This document shows, in pieces, positions 38,495-46,150 of a stretch of 64,000 bases of DNA. The position numbers and the translations under genes are program-made. Location of the stretch: contig JAFGCZ010000012.1 of NCBI GenBank assembly GCA_016932335.1, positions 1 through 64,000 of the forward strand, given 5' to 3'. This DNA comes from Opitutales bacterium (GTDB taxonomy: Bacteria > Verrucomicrobiota > Verrucomicrobiia > Opitutales > Oceanipulchritudinaceae). The notes below the pieces were generated by a model, which had not been told where the DNA came from, made no database searches, and saw only the letters and a list, made by a program, of their open reading frames with translations. Position 1 is the first letter of the stretch. Every line of letters begins with the position of its first letter.

Positions 38495-38522
38495 TTTACA
38501 TCTGTCCTTTTTTCTCCATAGT
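38495..38522 (+). promoter_or_regulatory. Candidate promoter of the sulfur operon leader
   Basis: TTTACA (38495-38500), a 16-base spacer and CATAGT (38517-38522) resemble sigma-70 -35 and -10 boxes. Transcription would start near 38529, about 17 bases before the leader ORF. Assigned by eye only. Confidence 0.4.
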
Positions 38523-38545
38523 TTTGCCATATCGAGAGAAACCTA

Positions 38546-38647
38546 ATGAAGAATACCATCAACAAAACTTGTCTTATGAATGCCATGATGTGCATGCCTA
38601 CCGGCAATGCGCTCGTTTTGGTTCGTGGCCTCCTGAGACTTCGTTGA
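38546..38647 (+). CDS. Met/Cys-rich leader peptide (candidate attenuator uORF)
   Basis: A 33-codon ORF, too short for usual gene finders. It has a GAGAGAAA ribosome-like site 6-13 bases upstream. The peptide contains TCLMNAMMCM, four Met and two Cys in ten residues, then PTGNALVLVRGLLRLR. Its stop lies 29 bases before a 15-bp terminator hairpin, and the downstream operon contains O-acetylhomoserine sulfhydrylase, which makes homocysteine/methionine, and a sulfonate-type importer. This is the layout of a transcription attenuator sensing charged tRNA-Met or tRNA-Cys. No convincing antiterminator pairing was found by eye, so the mechanism remains inferred. Confidence 0.55.
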   Translation: MKNTINKTCLMNAMMCMPTGNALVLVRGLLRLR

Positions 38648-38675
38648 TGCAGTAAACAACACACTCAGATTCCTC

Positions 38676-38713
38676 AAAAAGCCCGCGGATCAAAACATCC
38701 GCGGGCTTTTTGC
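38676..38713 (+). terminator. Strong hairpin terminator upstream of the sulfur operon (candidate attenuator)
   Basis: A perfect 15-bp stem AAAAAGCCCGCGGAT/ATCCGCGGGCTTTTT with a CAAAAC loop and a T5 end. It stands between the leader ORF and the first transporter gene, about 200 bases ahead of it, so it must be bypassed or be conditional if the leader promoter drives the operon. Confidence 0.85.
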
Positions 38714-38796
38714 ATTCTCAGGCCCGCGTTTTCCGCTCTTCACCTTCACCTGTAAAAACTTTTGGTAAATGGAATATAAACAACATGTAATCACTC

Positions 38797-38827
38797 CTCC
38801 GGCCGGTCCGCTCATTACCGGCCGGAG
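38797..38827 (+). other. GC-rich hairpin before the ABC ATPase gene
   Basis: An 11-bp perfect stem CTCCGGCCGGT/ACCGGCCGGAG with a 9-base loop. No T run follows, so it is not a simple terminator. It lies 82 bases before the ATPase start and could be part of the leader's folding or a transcript stabiliser. Confidence 0.55.
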
Positions 38828-38908
38828 CGGGTTGCCTGCCCGGAAACTTCGCACCTTTCCCGCATGGTTGGAAACCCACTGGTTTTTCCGGGCTGTGGAG
38901 GTCTCTTC

Positions 38909-39790
38909 ATGACTGCCGCCGCCCTCGAACCCAAGGCCTTGGTCAAACCGAAGCTGCCAATCATTGCGGATCAGAGCCTGCAGGGGCTGGAGGTTTCCGG
39001 CGTTCACTTTGCCTACTCGGGAAACCCTGTTTTGCAGGACATTTCTCTACAAATCAAAGAAGGAGAATTTGTCGCGCTTCTGGGGCCCAGTGGCAGTGGC
39101 AAAAGTACCTTGCTGCGCCTCTTGGCCGGTTTGGCATTTCCTCAATACGGATCCATTTCATGGCGTGGGCAGCCGGTCTCCGGGCCTTCTCTTGAGCGCG
39201 GTGTCGTTTTTCAGGACTATTCTCTCTTCCCCTGGATGAATCTATCCCAGAATGTGGAATTGGCCATTTCTAAAGCGCATAAGCGCTCTTCACGTAAATG
39301 GCGGCGAGAGCTTGCCAAAGAATACCTCGATCTTGTTGGGCTTGGGAGCCAGACCACAAAATATCCTCACGAGCTTTCCGGAGGTATGCGTCAGCGTAGC
39401 GCCATTGCCCGGACACTTGCTCTTGGCTCTCCGGTATTGCTCATGGATGAGCCCTTTGGCGCCTTGGATCCGGTGAACCGCAGCAAACTTCAGGATTTAC
39501 TCATAGAGGTCTGGAGAGATGCCCAACCGAGAAAAACCGTAGTTTTTGTTACTCACGATATCGACGAGGCCCTTTATTTGGCCGATCGCATCATCGTTCT
39601 GGGTTCCAATCCGGGGCGTATTATCGACGAGATTGAACTCTCTGCCGAAACGCCGAGAAGCCATGCCTCCATCGCCGGATCTACCGTTTTTGCCGAACTG
39701 CGCAGCCGTATTCGCAAGCGCTTTCAGGAGGATATCCTGAACCATATCCACGCCACTTCTGTTATTCACTCACCGGCTGAAGGGATCTAA
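38909..39790 (+). CDS. ABC transporter ATPase, nitrate/sulfonate/taurine type
   Basis: 293 residues from ATG 38909, which has GGAGG 7 bases upstream; the longer frame from 38864 lacks this. Walker A GPSGSGKSTLLRLLAG, Q-loop FQDYSLFPWMNLSQNVELA, signature ELSGGMRQRSAIARTLA, Walker B VLLMDEPFGALDPVNR and VTHDIDEALYLADRIIV match the SsuB/TauB group. It drives the adjacent permease and the binding protein encoded five genes on. It is the first structural gene after the leader/terminator. Confidence 0.9.
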   Translation: MTAAALEPKALVKPKLPIIADQSLQGLEVSGVHFAYSGNPVLQDISLQIKEGEFVALLGPSGSGKSTLLRLLAGLAFPQYGSISWRGQPVSGPSLERGVVFQDYSLFPWMNLSQNVELAISKAHKRSSRKWRRELAKEYLDLVGLGSQTTKYPHELSGGMRQRSAIARTLALGSPVLLMDEPFGALDPVNRSKLQDLLIEVWRDAQPRKTVVFVTHDIDEALYLADRIIVLGSNPGRIIDEIELSAETPRSHASIAGSTVFAELRSRIRKRFQEDILNHIHATSVIHSPAEGI

Positions 39791-39792
39791 CC

Positions 39793-40578
39793 ATGAACGA
39801 ACATAAACACAAATCCGTTCCATCTGGAGCCGTCAGACTTCCTTTATCAGGCTACGAAGGGATCTCCTTTCTTATAGCACTACTCGGTGCCTGGCAAATT
39901 ATCAGCGTGCTTCCATTCTCTGCCAATTATCTCTTTCCCGGGCCGCTGCAAACGTTCGCTGCTTTAAGAAATGCCCTTCCCGAACTTATCAAAGGCACTG
40001 TCTCATCCTTTCTTATTCTTCTGCCTGGTTTTTTCCTTGCCGCACTGGTCGGAATTCTCTGGGGCCTTTGGGTTGGTGTTACGCCCGCCTTACACCGCAT
40101 GTTTTCTCCCTTTTCCCGCTTGGCGGCACCCATTCCTCCCACCATCTACATTCCCTATGCCATTGCCTTGCTCCCTACTTTTCATTCAGCAGCCGGGTTC
40201 ATTGTTTTTGCCGGAGCTTTTTGGCCTATTTTCCTGAACACTGCGACCGGTGCTGCTTCCGTTCCCGGGCATTTTAGGGATAACGCCCGCATTCTCGGGC
40301 TTGGTCGTCTGGAGTATATTCGCCGCATCGTTTTCCCGGCGTCTCTTCCCCACATCTTTTCCGGTCTTTCCGTCAGTCTTGTGTTCTCCTTCATCATGCT
40401 CACCGTAGCAGAGCTTTTTGGGGCTCAAAATGGTTTGGGGCGCTTTATCCAGCTTTACGCCGACTATGCTGATTATCCCAAAATGGCGGCCGGCATTCTC
40501 TATGTGGGATCTGTTGTCTTCCTTTCAACAGCAGCCCTTGAACTCATCCGTAAACGTACCCTCTTCTGGGTGCGCTGA
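39793..40578 (+). CDS. ABC transporter permease, sulfonate/taurine type
   Basis: 261 residues with about six membrane helices. The EAA loop is recognisable (DNARILGLGRLEYIRRIVFP followed by ASLPHIFSG), as is FSFIMLTVAELFGAQNGLGR, typical of SsuC/TauC permeases. It starts two bases after the ATPase stop. It forms the inner-membrane channel for the substrate captured by the binding protein at 43232-44293. Confidence 0.88.
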   Translation: MNEHKHKSVPSGAVRLPLSGYEGISFLIALLGAWQIISVLPFSANYLFPGPLQTFAALRNALPELIKGTVSSFLILLPGFFLAALVGILWGLWVGVTPALHRMFSPFSRLAAPIPPTIYIPYAIALLPTFHSAAGFIVFAGAFWPIFLNTATGAASVPGHFRDNARILGLGRLEYIRRIVFPASLPHIFSGLSVSLVFSFIMLTVAELFGAQNGLGRFIQLYADYADYPKMAAGILYVGSVVFLSTAALELIRKRTLFWVR

Positions 40579-40593
40579 AATACAGGTCTTACG

Positions 40594-41604
40594 ATGTCTG
40601 CAACGCTCTCCAAAAGAAAGAACAAACTCATCAGTCTTTCCGATGCGGTTTCCCGATATGTTTCCGACGGTATTCAATACGCGCCCGGCAGTGGTTTGCC
40701 TGTTGGAGCCGAGTCTGTGGCCTTCGGACGGGAAATCATCCGGCAAAAGCGCAAGCACCTGCATGTGGTGGCCAATTGCTCCTCTCAGCAACTCAACCTG
40801 CTTTGTGCTGCCGGTGCCGTAGATAAAGCCGAACTGGGTTTTTCCGGGCTGGAGGTCTATGGCTTTGCCAATGGTCTGCGCCGCGCGGTGGAATCAGGAA
40901 AAACGATTCTCGAAGACTATTCCAACTTGTCCATGACGCTGCGCTTTCTTGGGGGAGCTCTCAATTGGCCGTTCGTCCCTGCTACTGTTAATATCGGTTC
41001 GGATATTCAGTGGTACCAGGCTTCAGCTCCTGAGCTATACCCATCAACTACAAAAATACCGGAGATCACCGATCCTTTTTCCGGTCGCCGACTCGGGGCC
41101 TTGAGCCCTCTGCGCCCGGACGTGGCTGCCATCCATGTCACGTTTGCCGATCCATCGGGAAATGCGGTTATGCTGGGGACTGAGTGGAGCCGTTTCGAAC
41201 TCTCTCGCGCAGCCAAAAAAGTCATTCTGGTTGCCGACCATATCGTCTCTCCGGCCTTGGCCAGACAGTTCCCAAACCTGATCCGCATACCTGATCTGGT
41301 GGTTGATGCGGTTGTCTACGCACCTTTTGCCGCCTGGCCGCAGAGCTCTCCAGGGCTTTACGATTCTGACGAGACTCACATGAAACTGCTCAACGAGGCC
41401 CTGAAAACCGAAGCGGGTTACCTGGACTACAAGCAGCGTTTTATTGACCCGGTGGAAACCCCTGAGGACCTTCTGCATCTTATCGGTGAGGAAAAAATTG
41501 AAACCCTGACCCGCGGGCCGACGTCCTTTTTGGCCGATCCCTTCCGTAAGTGGATTCTCTCCCCTGCGGCTGTCTCGGAAATCAAAGGAGACAATCATGA
41601 GTGA
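40594..41604 (+). CDS. CoA-transferase family I, subunit A (GctA/IpdA-like)
   Basis: 336 residues. Family features: AVSRYVSDGIQYAPGSGLPV at the start, ELGFSGLEVYGFANGLRRAV, then NIGSDI, DPFSGRRLGALSPLRPDVAA and HVTFADPSGNAVMLGTEW. These fit the alpha subunit of glutaconate-type CoA-transferases and the related IpdA ring-cleaving hydrolases of steroid catabolism; the two cannot be separated by eye. It pairs with the next gene, which overlaps its end by 8 bases. Within this operon it may activate an imported acid with CoA. Confidence 0.82.
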   Translation: MSATLSKRKNKLISLSDAVSRYVSDGIQYAPGSGLPVGAESVAFGREIIRQKRKHLHVVANCSSQQLNLLCAAGAVDKAELGFSGLEVYGFANGLRRAVESGKTILEDYSNLSMTLRFLGGALNWPFVPATVNIGSDIQWYQASAPELYPSTTKIPEITDPFSGRRLGALSPLRPDVAAIHVTFADPSGNAVMLGTEWSRFELSRAAKKVILVADHIVSPALARQFPNLIRIPDLVVDAVVYAPFAAWPQSSPGLYDSDETHMKLLNEALKTEAGYLDYKQRFIDPVETPEDLLHLIGEEKIETLTRGPTSFLADPFRKWILSPAAVSEIKGDNHE

Positions 41605-42382
41605 ATACACACGTCAGGAAATGATGGCGATTGCCACCGGTAGGGAAATTCGCGATGGAGAATTGGCCATTTTCGGGGTAGGGCTCAGTATGTTGGCCGG
41701 CTTTTTTGCTCAGGCACACCATGCACCCAACATTCGCTCGCTCACCGAAGGAGGCGTCTACGGGGCCACACCCGTTGGCGGTCTTCCTTGGGGCATCGAA
41801 TGTAACCGCATTTCAGCTAATGCCACATCGTTTACCGGAGCACTTGATGCCCTGGGATTCCTCGTCGGTTCAGGCCGCTGTGATGTGGGTATTATCGGTG
41901 CCGCTCAAGTCGATAAATTTGGCAACGTCAACACCACCGCTATTTGGGGCGATCCGCTGTCGTCCGTGGCCGGCCTTCCCCGCACCAGGCTTGCCGGGGC
42001 CGGCGGAGCCAACGATATCGCTTCTTCCTGCGGGCGGGTGGTCATCATGGCCGCGCACGAGAAGAAACGTTTTGTCGATCGGGTCGATTACATCAGCTCT
42101 CCGGGCTTTCTTGACGGCCCGGGCTCTCGCAGGCGTTATGGCCTGATCGGTGGAGGGCCTTCCGTTATTGTCACTACATTGGGCATCCTGCGGCCCAACC
42201 CAAAGACACTCGAATTTGAAATCAGTGCCTATTTTGCATTTTCCAGCATCGAAGAAATTCTCAGTAGCACCGGGTGGAACCTTCAGGTCAGCCCGCATGT
42301 TCATGTAGTTCCTCCGCCGTCTCCGGCTGAACTGAAGGCGCTGCGCAGCGTTGATACCACCGGAATGCTCCAACGCAAATAA
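41597..42382 (+). CDS. CoA-transferase family I, subunit B (GctB/IpdB-like)
   Basis: 261 residues. The segment IRSLTEGGVYGATPVGGLPW holds the Glu in the position of the catalytic glutamate of beta subunits; RCDVGIIGAAQVDKFGNVNT and RLAGAGGANDIASSC are further family hallmarks. It completes a two-subunit enzyme with the preceding gene (8-base overlap). The catalytic Glu favours a true transferase, but IpdB-like hydrolase activity remains possible. Confidence 0.82.
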   Translation: MSEYTRQEMMAIATGREIRDGELAIFGVGLSMLAGFFAQAHHAPNIRSLTEGGVYGATPVGGLPWGIECNRISANATSFTGALDALGFLVGSGRCDVGIIGAAQVDKFGNVNTTAIWGDPLSSVAGLPRTRLAGAGGANDIASSCGRVVIMAAHEKKRFVDRVDYISSPGFLDGPGSRRRYGLIGGGPSVIVTTLGILRPNPKTLEFEISAYFAFSSIEEILSSTGWNLQVSPHVHVVPPPSPAELKALRSVDTTGMLQRK

Positions 42383-42404
42383 CCCTTTTAAAGAAAACAT
42401 CCAT

Positions 42405-43199
42405 ATGTCCAACGTATTTCAATCCACACAGGATGTCCTGCTTCACATCGAAGAAGGCATCGCTACCGTCACCCTGAATAAGCCGCAGTCTCGCAACAGT
42501 CTCTCTTTGCAAACTCTTAGGGAGCTGCATGCGGCGTTTACTGCTCTTGACGGAGATTCCTGCGTGCGTGTGGTCGTCCTGACCGCAAATGGGCCTGCTT
42601 TTTCCGCCGGTCACGATCTCAAGGAGGTCTACGCCCATAGTGGCGATGCCGTCTTTTATCAGGAGCTTTTTCACGCCTGTGCCGAGACCATGAAAGCCAT
42701 TGTCCGCCTACCCAAACCGGTGATAGCCAAAATTCGCGGTGTGGCCACGGCTGCCGGGGCGCAACTGGTGGCCAGTGCAGATCTGGCCTATGCTGCAGAG
42801 TCCGCCCGTTTCGCCACTCCCGGCGTCAATATCGGCCTCTTTTGCTCTACTCCCATGGTCGCACTTTCCCGTAACGTAGCCCATAAGCATGCGCTGGAGC
42901 TGCTCCTTTCCGGCGATTTGTTTACGGCTCAGCACGCGGCCCGTATCGGGTTGATCAACCGTGCCTTGCCTGAGGATGAACTGGATGCCGCGGTAGATCA
43001 GTTGGCCTGTAAAATTGCTGCCAAGTCCTCAGTCACCCTGGCTATCGGTAAAGAGGCGTTCTACCGCCAAGCGGAACTCCCGCTGGATGATGCCTATGCC
43101 TATGCCGCCCACATTATGGTGCAAAACCTCAAGCATGAGGATGCCTCGGAGGGCATTTGCGCCTTTCTCGAAAAGCGGACTCCCGTTTGGAGAAACTGA
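42405..43199 (+). CDS. Enoyl-CoA hydratase/isomerase (crotonase) family protein
   Basis: 264 residues from ATG 42405 (MSNVFQSTQDVLLHIEEGIA). Crotonase motifs: TVTLNKPQSRNSLSLQTL, oxyanion-hole region FSAGHDLKEVY and second site RGVATAAGAQLVASADLAYA. The HDL region resembles ECHDC3-type members; the two classical catalytic Glu are not both evident (GAQLVA/PGVNIGL), so it may catalyse a different reaction such as beta-elimination or thioester hydrolysis. It follows the CoA-transferase pair and precedes the binding protein, in one operon. Confidence 0.85.
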   Translation: MSNVFQSTQDVLLHIEEGIATVTLNKPQSRNSLSLQTLRELHAAFTALDGDSCVRVVVLTANGPAFSAGHDLKEVYAHSGDAVFYQELFHACAETMKAIVRLPKPVIAKIRGVATAAGAQLVASADLAYAAESARFATPGVNIGLFCSTPMVALSRNVAHKHALELLLSGDLFTAQHAARIGLINRALPEDELDAAVDQLACKIAAKSSVTLAIGKEAFYRQAELPLDDAYAYAAHIMVQNLKHEDASEGICAFLEKRTPVWRN

Positions 43200-43231
43200 A
43201 CCTTTAACCTTTGTCACAACAAATTACACTT

Positions 43232-44293
43232 ATGAATCGTAAAAACTTCTCTATCAGATCTGCTTTGTCTGCGGTTTTCGCGCTGGCAGTCTCTTTAACT
43301 CCCGTTCATCACCTGTCTGCCGCCTCCGGCACAGAAAAAGGCATCCCTTTAACTGCTGGGTATTTGCCGACTACCGGTCATGCTAAATACTTTGTGGCCT
43401 ATGAAGAAGGGTTCTTTGCCGAAGAGGGGTTAGATGTAAAACTTGTCGAGTTCCTCAATTCTGCGGATGGCTTGGCCGCCTTGAGGGCACATAAACTGGA
43501 TGTTGCCGCTTTTGGAACCTCGGCACCGCTCCTGCATATTTCCAAAGGAGCGGATTTGCGCATCATTGGCGGGGTCATGGGAGAAGATGCGTCTGTCTTC
43601 ACCACCAAAGACAAAGCGCATTCCATAAACTCGATCGCCGACCTTAAGGGGAAGAAAATCGCCACTGTGCGTCTGGCATCAGGTGATGCCATTTTACGGG
43701 GAGCACTTGCCGACGCCGGTATTGACTGGCAGAAGGATGTGCAACTTTTTGAGCTGAAGAACCCACCGGCTGTTCAAGAAGCCGTGCTCTCCGGGCAGGT
43801 GGATGCCGGTGTTACCTGGGGGCCGTTTGATATCCGCGCCGAACAGGCCGGTCTGGAAGTCGTCATTCGCAGCCGCAACCTCTACCCTGGGCATCCCTGC
43901 TGCAGACTTACCGTCAATAACGACGACCGCTACCGGAAAACGCCCGAGGTATGGGTTAAATTCCTCCGTGCTTTCCTTAAGGCCGAAAAGTTTACTCAGG
44001 AATACCGCGAGCAGACAGTTGAGGACATCCATAAATATTTCCCCATCGATAAAGAGACCATCTATCAAGGCTACTACGAGGGCTTTCTCGACCAGAGCAC
44101 CGATCCCAACCTGACCGGATTGCAGAATTTCTGGCACATTATCCTCAGCAGCGGCTTTGCCGAAAGCGACAAAGACATTGCCGGCTATGTCGATGTAAAC
44201 CTTTACCGTGAGGCTTTGCAGAGCCTCATCACAGAACAGCCCGATGAGTTGTTTTGGCAGCAAAAATTGATACAATATCAGTCGAGAAACTGA
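43232..44293 (+). CDS. ABC transporter substrate-binding protein, SsuA/NMT1 type
   Basis: 353 residues from ATG 43232, chosen for the signal peptide that follows (SIRSALSAVFALAVSLTPVH, cleavage near LSAASG). The mature protein has the periplasmic binding fold: AGYLPTTGHAKYFVAYEEGF, GLDVKLVEFLNSADGLAALR, LKGKKIATVRLASGDAILRG. It belongs to the sulfonate/taurine/nitrate-type binders. It is separated from its ATPase and permease by CoA-enzyme genes, so the three functions appear to share one substrate. Confidence 0.88.
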   Translation: MNRKNFSIRSALSAVFALAVSLTPVHHLSAASGTEKGIPLTAGYLPTTGHAKYFVAYEEGFFAEEGLDVKLVEFLNSADGLAALRAHKLDVAAFGTSAPLLHISKGADLRIIGGVMGEDASVFTTKDKAHSINSIADLKGKKIATVRLASGDAILRGALADAGIDWQKDVQLFELKNPPAVQEAVLSGQVDAGVTWGPFDIRAEQAGLEVVIRSRNLYPGHPCCRLTVNNDDRYRKTPEVWVKFLRAFLKAEKFTQEYREQTVEDIHKYFPIDKETIYQGYYEGFLDQSTDPNLTGLQNFWHIILSSGFAESDKDIAGYVDVNLYREALQSLITEQPDELFWQQKLIQYQSRN

Positions 44294-44357: not shown

Positions 44358-45650
44358 ATGTCAGATCAAGAACACTTTTTTGGCTTCGATACCCGGATGA
44401 TTCATGCCGGGCAGGTTCCCAATTCAGAAAATGGAGCTCGGGCAGTTCCCATTTATCAGACCACATCCTACGTTTTCGAGAATGCCGACCATGCGGCCAA
44501 GCTTTTTGCCCTTAAAGAATACGGGCACCTGTATTCTCGTATCAGCAATCCCACTGTAGCAGTGCTCGAAGAGCGGCTGGCCTCTCTGGATGGGGCCACC
44601 GGTGCGGTTGCGGTTTCCAGCGGCATGGCCGCCCAGTTTCTGGTCTTTGTTACGCTCCTCCAGCCGGGAGATCACATTGTTGCCTCCAGTCACCTTTATG
44701 GAGGTACCGTTACGCAAATTTCTCAAACACTGAAAAAGCTTTCCGTGGATGTCACCTTTGTTGATCCTCACGATCTGGACGCTTGGAAAGAGGCCGTAAA
44801 CGGGCGCACCCGCCTTTTCTATGGTGAGACGATCGGTAACCCTCTCGGTTCTGTATTTGATATTGAAGCGGTTGCCGATATTGCCCATTCCCGTGGGTTG
44901 CCTTTGGTTATCGACAACACCTTGGCCACTCCCTGGCTATCCCGTCCGATTGATTACGGAGCCGATATCGTTGTCTATTCTGCCACGAAGTTCCTCGCCG
45001 GACATGGAAATTCTCTGGTCGGTGCCATCCTTGATTCAGGAAAGTTTGATTTCTCAGGTTTTGAGACGATCTCCGCTCCGGAACCTGCCTACCACGATTT
45101 GAATTTTTACGATACCTTTGGCCATTACGCCTTTCTCACCAAGGTGAGGGCTGTATCCTTGAGGGATATCGGGGCAAGCCTCTCTCCCTTCAATGCCTTT
45201 CTCGCATTGCAGGGAATCGAAACGCTCTCTCTGCGCATGGACCGCCATGTATCCAATGCATTGGCTGTGGCCCGGTTCCTGGAACAACACCCCAAGGTGT
45301 CCTGGGTCTCCTATGCCGGCCTGCCTTCGCATGCCCATTATGAACTGGGGCAAAAGTATTTACCCAAGGGTGCCGGCGCCGTGTTTTCCTTTGGACTGAA
45401 GGCGGCGCCGGAACAGGCCAGAGAGGCTGGGGCCCGCTTCATTGCCGGGCTGGATCTCTTCTCCCATTTGGCCAATATTGGCGATGTGAGAAGTCTTGTC
45501 ATCCATCCGGCATCCACCACGCATCAGCAGCTCAGCGATGAGCAATTGGCCGCCGGTGGTATTGGACCGGAATTGATTCGACTTTCGGTTGGGTTGGAAA
45601 ACAAGGAGGATTTGATATGGGATTTGGAGAAGGCACTGCTTGCGATATAG
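44358..45650 (+). CDS. metY: O-acetylhomoserine sulfhydrylase
   Basis: 430 residues, PLP-dependent Cys/Met-metabolism family. Motifs: TRMIHAGQVPNSENGARAVP, IYQTTSYVFENADHAA, SRISNPTVAVLEERLASLDG, PLP Lys in YSATKFLAGHGNSLVG and the C-terminal SLVIHPASTTHQQLSDEQLA. It condenses O-acetylhomoserine with sulfide (or methanethiol) to homocysteine (or methionine). As the last enzyme of this operon it would capture sulfur released from the imported compound. The next gene starts inside its 3' end. Confidence 0.94.
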   Translation: MSDQEHFFGFDTRMIHAGQVPNSENGARAVPIYQTTSYVFENADHAAKLFALKEYGHLYSRISNPTVAVLEERLASLDGATGAVAVSSGMAAQFLVFVTLLQPGDHIVASSHLYGGTVTQISQTLKKLSVDVTFVDPHDLDAWKEAVNGRTRLFYGETIGNPLGSVFDIEAVADIAHSRGLPLVIDNTLATPWLSRPIDYGADIVVYSATKFLAGHGNSLVGAILDSGKFDFSGFETISAPEPAYHDLNFYDTFGHYAFLTKVRAVSLRDIGASLSPFNAFLALQGIETLSLRMDRHVSNALAVARFLEQHPKVSWVSYAGLPSHAHYELGQKYLPKGAGAVFSFGLKAAPEQAREAGARFIAGLDLFSHLANIGDVRSLVIHPASTTHQQLSDEQLAAGGIGPELIRLSVGLENKEDLIWDLEKALLAI

Positions 45651-46150
45651 GCTGGATGTCTCCCCTCAATGCAGATCAGAGGAAACGCTTTCAGGAACCG
45701 CAAGTCATTCGTCGGATTATTGCTCAACCGGGTACTGTGGCTGTTGTTGGGCTTTCTTCAAATCCGCAGAAAGCCAGTTACTTTGTGGCCGATTATCTTC
45801 AGAAACGGGGCTGGAAGATTATCCCCGTAACACCCAAATCGGGCACCATTTTGGGGGAGCCATCCTTTGCTTCTCTTGAGGATGTGCCTGTTCCCATAGA
45901 TCTGGTTGATGTTTTTCGTCCGCCTTCTGAAATGCCTGCTCTGGTGGAACAGGCCATCCGCATACGGGCTAGGGCCTTTTGGATGCAGCTCAAGCTTGCC
46001 CACCTCGATGCCGCGGAAACCGCCGCCGCAGCGGGACTGCTTGTTGTGGCCGATAAATGTATTAAAATGGAATACGCACGCTATAACGGTGGACTGAACA
46101 GTTCCGGGATGAATTCAGGAGTGATTTCGTCTAAAAAAAACAAGGCATGA
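45617..46150 (+). CDS. CoA-binding domain protein (YccU-type)
   Basis: 177 residues. The start at 45617 is supported by a perfect AAGGAGG 8 bases upstream and makes a 34-base overlap with metY; ATG 45656 is an alternative. The Rossmann-like CoA_binding_2 domain shows AVVGLSSNPQKASYFVADYL, IIPVTPKSG, DLVDVFRPPSEMPALVEQAI and VVADKCIKMEYAR. The family binds CoA and is often found beside O-acetylhomoserine sulfhydrylase; its role is unclear. The stop codon lies inside the following hairpin. Confidence 0.87.
   Translation: MGFGEGTACDIGWMSPLNADQRKRFQEPQVIRRIIAQPGTVAVVGLSSNPQKASYFVADYLQKRGWKIIPVTPKSGTILGEPSFASLEDVPVPIDLVDVFRPPSEMPALVEQAIRIRARAFWMQLKLAHLDAAETAAAAGLLVVADKCIKMEYARYNGGLNSSGMNSGVISSKKNKA

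Follow-up and report, generated by a model that had tools for sequence, protein, structure and literature searches.

Which signal decides whether the importer, CoA-transferase, crotonase and O-acetylhomoserine sulfhydrylase (MetY) genes that stand together on a contig of an Opitutales bacterium are transcribed? Bacterial control of methionine is usually credited to riboswitches, T-boxes or repressors, and SAM riboswitches and T-boxes act on methionine genes by premature termination. Classical attenuators (trpL, hisL, leuL, ilvL, thrL) combine a leader ORF with codons for the product, a 1:2 protector, a 2:3 antiterminator and a 3:4 intrinsic terminator in front of a biosynthetic operon. In the window, being the whole stretch of 64,000 nucleotides analysed here (contig JAFGCZ010000012.1, positions 1 to 64,000), a Met/Cys-rich leader peptide followed by a terminator had been predicted to form the attenuator of a sulfur operon. 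Our analysis supports this prediction and refines it, with Met as the main residue and an antiterminator as an additional part: the element is very probably a ribosome-mediated transcription attenuator, sensing mainly charged Met-tRNA with a possible contribution of Cys. For the window, the ORF, its codon block, the terminator, the 2:3 pairing and the recurrence before the same operon were computed; the features are listed in Table 1.

Table 1. Position of the leader elements and operon genes in the window
Feature	Position	Strand	Remark
Promoter-like site TTTACA-16-CATAGT for the leader transcript	38495..38522	+	9/12 consensus
Leader ORF MKNTINKTCLMNAMMCMPTGNALVLVRGLLRLR	38546..38647	+	33 codons; Met/Cys count rare among small ORFs
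Region 1, Met/Cys control-codon block (C L M N A M M C M)	38570..38596	+	place similar to MMMSMC / MTMSMC / MMMPM in seven related leaders
Region 1 segment GCCATGA, putative 1:2 protector hairpin with 38623-38629 (TCGTGGC)	38582..38588	+	MFE folds; weaker than the hairpins of relatives
Region 2, antiterminator strand GTTTTGGTTCGTGG	38615..38628	+	inside codons V L V R G, just past the Met/Cys block
Intrinsic terminator	38676..38711	+	15-bp perfect stem, loop CAAAAC, U-tract within 3' arm
Region 3, GC core of terminator 5' arm plus loop (CCGCGGATCAAAAC)	38683..38696	+	target of region 2
ABC transporter ATPase (nitrate/sulfonate/taurine type), first operon gene	38909..39790	+	SD GGAGG, anti-SD -10.0 kcal/mol
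ABC transporter permease (nitrate/sulfonate/taurine type)	39793..40578	+	sequence family
CoA-transferase family subunit A, glutaconate CoA-transferase-like	40594..41604	+	sequence family and solved structures
CoA-transferase family subunit B	41597..42382	+	sequence family and solved structures
Enoyl-CoA hydratase / crotonase family	42396..43199	+	sequence family
SsuA/NMT1-type substrate-binding protein	43211..44293	+	sequence family
O-acetylhomoserine sulfhydrylase (MetY)	44358..45650	+	TIGR01326 above cut-off
CoA-binding protein (CoA_binding_2)	45617..46150	+	sequence family

The leader ORF starts with ATG and, as originally predicted, encodes the stretch TCLMNAMMCM with four Met and two Cys in ten residues. 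Among the 878 ORFs of 15-60 aa in the window this ORF alone reaches six Met/Cys per ten residues, and in about 0.8 Mb of related loci the same count is reached by two of 8360 unique small ORFs, a set that includes the window leader ORF itself (via L001). The ribosome site predicted in front of it was found but is weak (anti-SD pairing -3.0 kcal/mol). The promoter-like site came from a scan in which the number of sites was not above chance expectation; the relatives described below have a TTGAC(G/T) element at a similar distance ahead of their leader ATG. Beyond the stop codon, after a gap of 28 nt and not the 29 bases originally counted, follows the perfect 15-bp terminator that had been proposed (AAAAAGCCCGCGGAT / ATCCGCGGGCTTTTT, 38676-38690 with 38697-38711), which places an intrinsic terminator between the leader ORF and the first gene. 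Folding of 38524-38715 gave z = -5.3 against dinucleotide shuffles. This hairpin is missing from the output of a simple terminator scan of the window, probably because the T-run forms part of the stem.

An alternative pairing, which the original prediction had proposed to look for but had not identified, was found in the window and in all four relatives. When the stretch from the Met/Cys block to the terminator was matched to the 5' arm of the latter, region 2 of the window was found to pair over 14 contiguous bp with region 3 (-20.4 kcal/mol), which takes in the entire loop and the GC core of the arm. This pairing was equalled in 2 of 2000 dinucleotide shuffles and in 147 of 2000 synonymous-codon randomisations, the latter null being beaten only moderately. 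Antiterminator and terminator are mutually exclusive in the window and the four relatives, and more weakly so in the second copies described below. In equilibrium folding of the complete leader the terminator always wins and the antiterminator does not appear, and antitermination was therefore judged on transcripts ending before the terminator 3' arm. On such transcripts of the window the 2:3 pairing was favoured with or without a placed ribosome (P 0.85-0.89), and the 1:2 protector, just 7 bp plus local hairpins, was not favoured at equilibrium once region 3 exists. Since 2:3 is favoured in every equilibrium state, a switch in the window would have to be kinetic, with GCCATGA holding TCGTGGC before region 3 is made; as modelled, this kinetic switch is the weakest part of the case for an attenuator.

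The operon behind the leader has the content claimed for it, including MetY and a sulfonate-type importer. Its best ATPase start (38909, behind GGAGG) lies about 195 nt from the terminator. Among solved structures, glutaconate CoA-transferase most resembles both CoA-transferase subunits, and the closest named record for subunit A is titled Verrucomicrobia (75% identical). Judged by sequence family only, MetY and the SsuA/NMT1-type importer would let the operon serve the supply of the amino acid sensed. The operon would fit a route that takes up an organosulfur acid, converts it to a CoA ester and cleaves this ester, MetY capturing the sulfide. The glutaconate-CoA-transferase-like pair and the crotonase (40594-43199), beside MetY and the SsuA-type importer, form a candidate sulfide-releasing organosulfur-acid pathway.

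Of 273 genomes of the order, five have CoA-transferase A, and among the 246 examined for the binding protein it was again these five that have it. Besides the genome of the window these are G053, G067, G113 and G161, all from one genus (g43) in another family of the same order, where the operon starts with the binding protein gene. In these four genomes a Met/Cys codon block and a terminator recur before the same operon, a recurrence that had been proposed as a check. Their leaders count 32 codons with a Met-rich block MMMSMC or MTMSMC before the terminator, the peptides being MTKTKQFFATKAEMMMSMCEENLRASTVFCRK (L046), MTKTKQFFAVNAGMTMSMCGENLRASAMFCRK (L047) and MTKRTFKFLANAKMMMSMCEIKIRASATFCCV (L048), with that of L049 equal to the last but ending in A. 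The antiterminator occupies leader nt 67-79 (69-84 in the window) and forms 10-11 bp with the 5' arm of the terminator (-18.6 to -21.7 kcal/mol), being equalled by 9, 2, 16 and 3 of 2000 shuffles. The terminator arms differ (GGGGCGCGGA, GAGGTGCGA and, in the window, CCGCGGATCAAAAC), and each is matched by the region 2 of its own leader.

In a survey of 373 genomes of the order, strong matches to a leader profile were confined to the five operon genomes, including second copies in three of them; a profile including the window peptide finds that peptide by construction, and a separate profile leaves it out. Weak profile matches in G012, G048 and G675 proved on inspection not to be leader-terminator units, and one in G408 (E 0.001) lies inside a 309-residue open frame. 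A leader search in a further 255 genomes of the phylum gave nothing convincing, a direct search with the window peptide in 54 relatives gave noise only (E 0.3-1.2), and no convincing Met/Cys leader with terminator was found upstream of MetY orthologues elsewhere in the order, of the second MetY of the window genome or of the close MetY of G008. Beside the TTGAC element that precedes the leader ATG of L046-L049, a nearly palindromic promoter-region motif was observed (TACCATTTTGGTA or similar), which is possibly a repressor operator.

Three of the four relatives carry a second leader copy (MNKNKAVLFAAAKMMMPMRDVKILASATLCCV or close variants, with the block MMMPM), again with a terminator; these copies precede a Porin_O_P-type porin by about 260 nt (L118, L119 and L120; reverse complement, about 850-1300). 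One of them is shorter by exactly one codon, through an in-frame 3-nt indel. The second copies keep the hairpins, and their antiterminators are weaker (67-72 of 2000 shuffles as good). Because the blocks of these second copies are without Cys, the conserved control residue, as read from the codons, is mainly Met. The orthologous porin of G113 has no leader, its spacer (L124) measuring about 90 nt, and the genus has therefore seen a gain or a loss of the element; in five further g43 genomes the porin orthologues are likewise without the leader. In L119 and L120, an S-adenosylmethionine synthetase-like ORF lies further downstream of the second copy.

Short ORFs with clustered codons for the amino acid of the operon were found in the window and in seven further leaders. 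In these seven, a strong 1:2 hairpin, compared with 7 bp in the window, joins the control codons (TCGATGTGT or CCGATGCGT) with region 2; its 12 bp were paired in 96% of cells versus 29-48% when slid. It shows one double change (C-G against U-A), and a covariation shuffle control on the hairpin was not significant (289 of 500, with just seven related sequences). When a ribosome was modelled as sitting on the Met/Cys codons, P(2:3) was 0.69-0.81, against 0.00-0.29 without a ribosome; with the ribosome at the stop codon it was low in five of the seven leaders and about 0.75 in L048 and L049.

Failing conservation of the ORF or the hairpin in relatives had been named as what would contradict the attenuator. 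The block, the terminator and the pairing do recur, but the window peptide shares no conserved sequence with the peptides of the other family: against a profile from which it was left out, the window leader scored E = 3.2, no better than other small ORFs. Kept across the leaders are the open frame, of 31-33 codons, the Met-rich block, the position of the antiterminator and the terminator, and so are ATG codons that precede the hairpin and take no part in the 1:2 helix; no third-position codon bias was seen. What persists on these comparisons is architecture and codon content, not sequence. Persisting codons without a conserved peptide are what codon-based sensing predicts; a trans-acting peptide or a plain RNA element would account for them less easily.

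In the mechanism that we infer, which comprises leader translation, stalling, the amino acid sensed, the direction of regulation and the pathway, a ribosome would translate the leader ORF. With ample methionine it would clear the Met/Cys block, region 1 behind it would hold region 2, and with region 2 held the terminator would form and end transcription before the operon. With scarce Met-tRNA it would stall in the block and cover region 1, upon which region 2 would pair with the loop and 5' arm of the terminator, and RNA polymerase would read into the importer, CoA-transferase, crotonase and MetY genes, whose products would supply sulfide and homocysteine for methionine. A broader reading, to which we give slightly less than an even chance, is that Verrucomicrobiota have a lineage-specific class of Met-sensing attenuators whose antiterminator strand is coded in the leader ORF right after the Met codons, 1:2 re-forming behind the moving ribosome. 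This class would have been copied within genomes to the porin gene, and would have kept its codon content and pairing logic through an almost complete turnover of peptide and RNA sequence.

If the operon were transcribed from a promoter of its own in 38712-38909, the terminator would be the end of a small stand-alone transcript or an insulator and the leader ORF incidental; such a second promoter had also been named as grounds for abandoning the attenuator. The spacer of about 195 nt does hold a weak candidate, a TATAAA at 38775-38780, as well as a perfect 11-bp inverted repeat without T-run (CTCCGGCCGGT / ACCGGCCGGAG, 38797-38827), but the best -35 for this TATAAA scores 3/6, the same leader-terminator order stands just about 60 nt from the first gene in the four relatives, and the antiterminator pairing would be pointless, which makes an own promoter improbable. 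The leader ORFs without a strong Shine-Dalgarno, and an RNA pairing conserved at least as well as the peptide, would agree with a leader that binds a protein or a metabolite (riboswitch-like, or antitermination by an RNA-binding protein) and leaves the small ORF untranslated. We consider this very improbable, as the Met/Cys codons stay at a similar place though the window sequence is otherwise unalignable, the ATG codons outside the 1:2 helix are kept, the indel is exactly 3 nt, and no Rfam family reached its gathering score anywhere in the window; on this last ground a SAM riboswitch or T-box was rejected as well. Translation-coupled or Rho-dependent control through a Met-rich leader, as proposed for mycobacterial Cys-rich leaders, draws on known Cys-rich leaders without intrinsic terminators (PMC1262725), but is hardly credible where every case has an intrinsic terminator with a matched antiterminator.

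The ribosome-mediated attenuator preferred here is classical in its mechanism: like the classical attenuators it has a leader ORF with clustered codons for the product, a 2:3 antiterminator and an intrinsic terminator before the operon, together with a 1:2 protector that is putative in the window. It differs by its Met (and Cys) codons and by an antiterminator strand that lies within the leader ORF, ahead of the stop codon. Unlike in SAM riboswitches and T-boxes, sensing is proposed to occur via the ribosome. A 2010 listing of leader-peptide attenuators covers Proteobacteria, Actinobacteria and a histidine case in Firmicutes (PMC2965389), and the present element lies outside these phyla. Streptomyces lividans metL (MSTTSDRTPATEATTTPGARCMCRRMCAF), upstream of the sulfur amino-acid importer metNIQ, is likewise a Met/Cys-rich leader peptide before sulfur-related importer genes; it is leaderless-transcribed and without a typical intrinsic terminator (PMC8079986), in a different phylum, and no alternative pairing is described in the passages on it, whereas one is present here. 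Mycobacterial cys operons also have sulfur amino-acid codons in a small ORF before sulfur genes, namely Cys-rich leader peptides with a Cys run near the stop codon and no terminator (PMC1262725), later described as translation attenuation (cited in PMC13236596). The 5'UTR of the Xanthomonas met operon provides a mainly translational methionine feedback in a Gram-negative (PMC6230763), in a text from which the terms leader peptide and terminator are absent. Open-licence papers yielded no description of methionine attenuators or of attenuators in Verrucomicrobia, and in that literature a Met-type attenuator that has both terminator and antiterminator complete seems not to have been described for phyla other than Proteobacteria, Actinobacteria and Firmicutes. 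If true, it would give bacteria one more way to sense sulfur amino acids, take ribosome-mediated attenuation into a further phylum and tie the importer/CoA-transferase/crotonase/MetY operon to methionine supply, its organosulfur substrate becoming testable.

A related operon in a record titled Verrucomicrobia (L013/G600) starts with a porin and has no Met/Cys leader. In L013, L094 and L095 an outer-membrane porin-like gene and a binding protein come first, then CoA-transferase and crotonase genes, and the operon continues with cysteine-synthase-like and cysteine-desulfurase-like ORFs.
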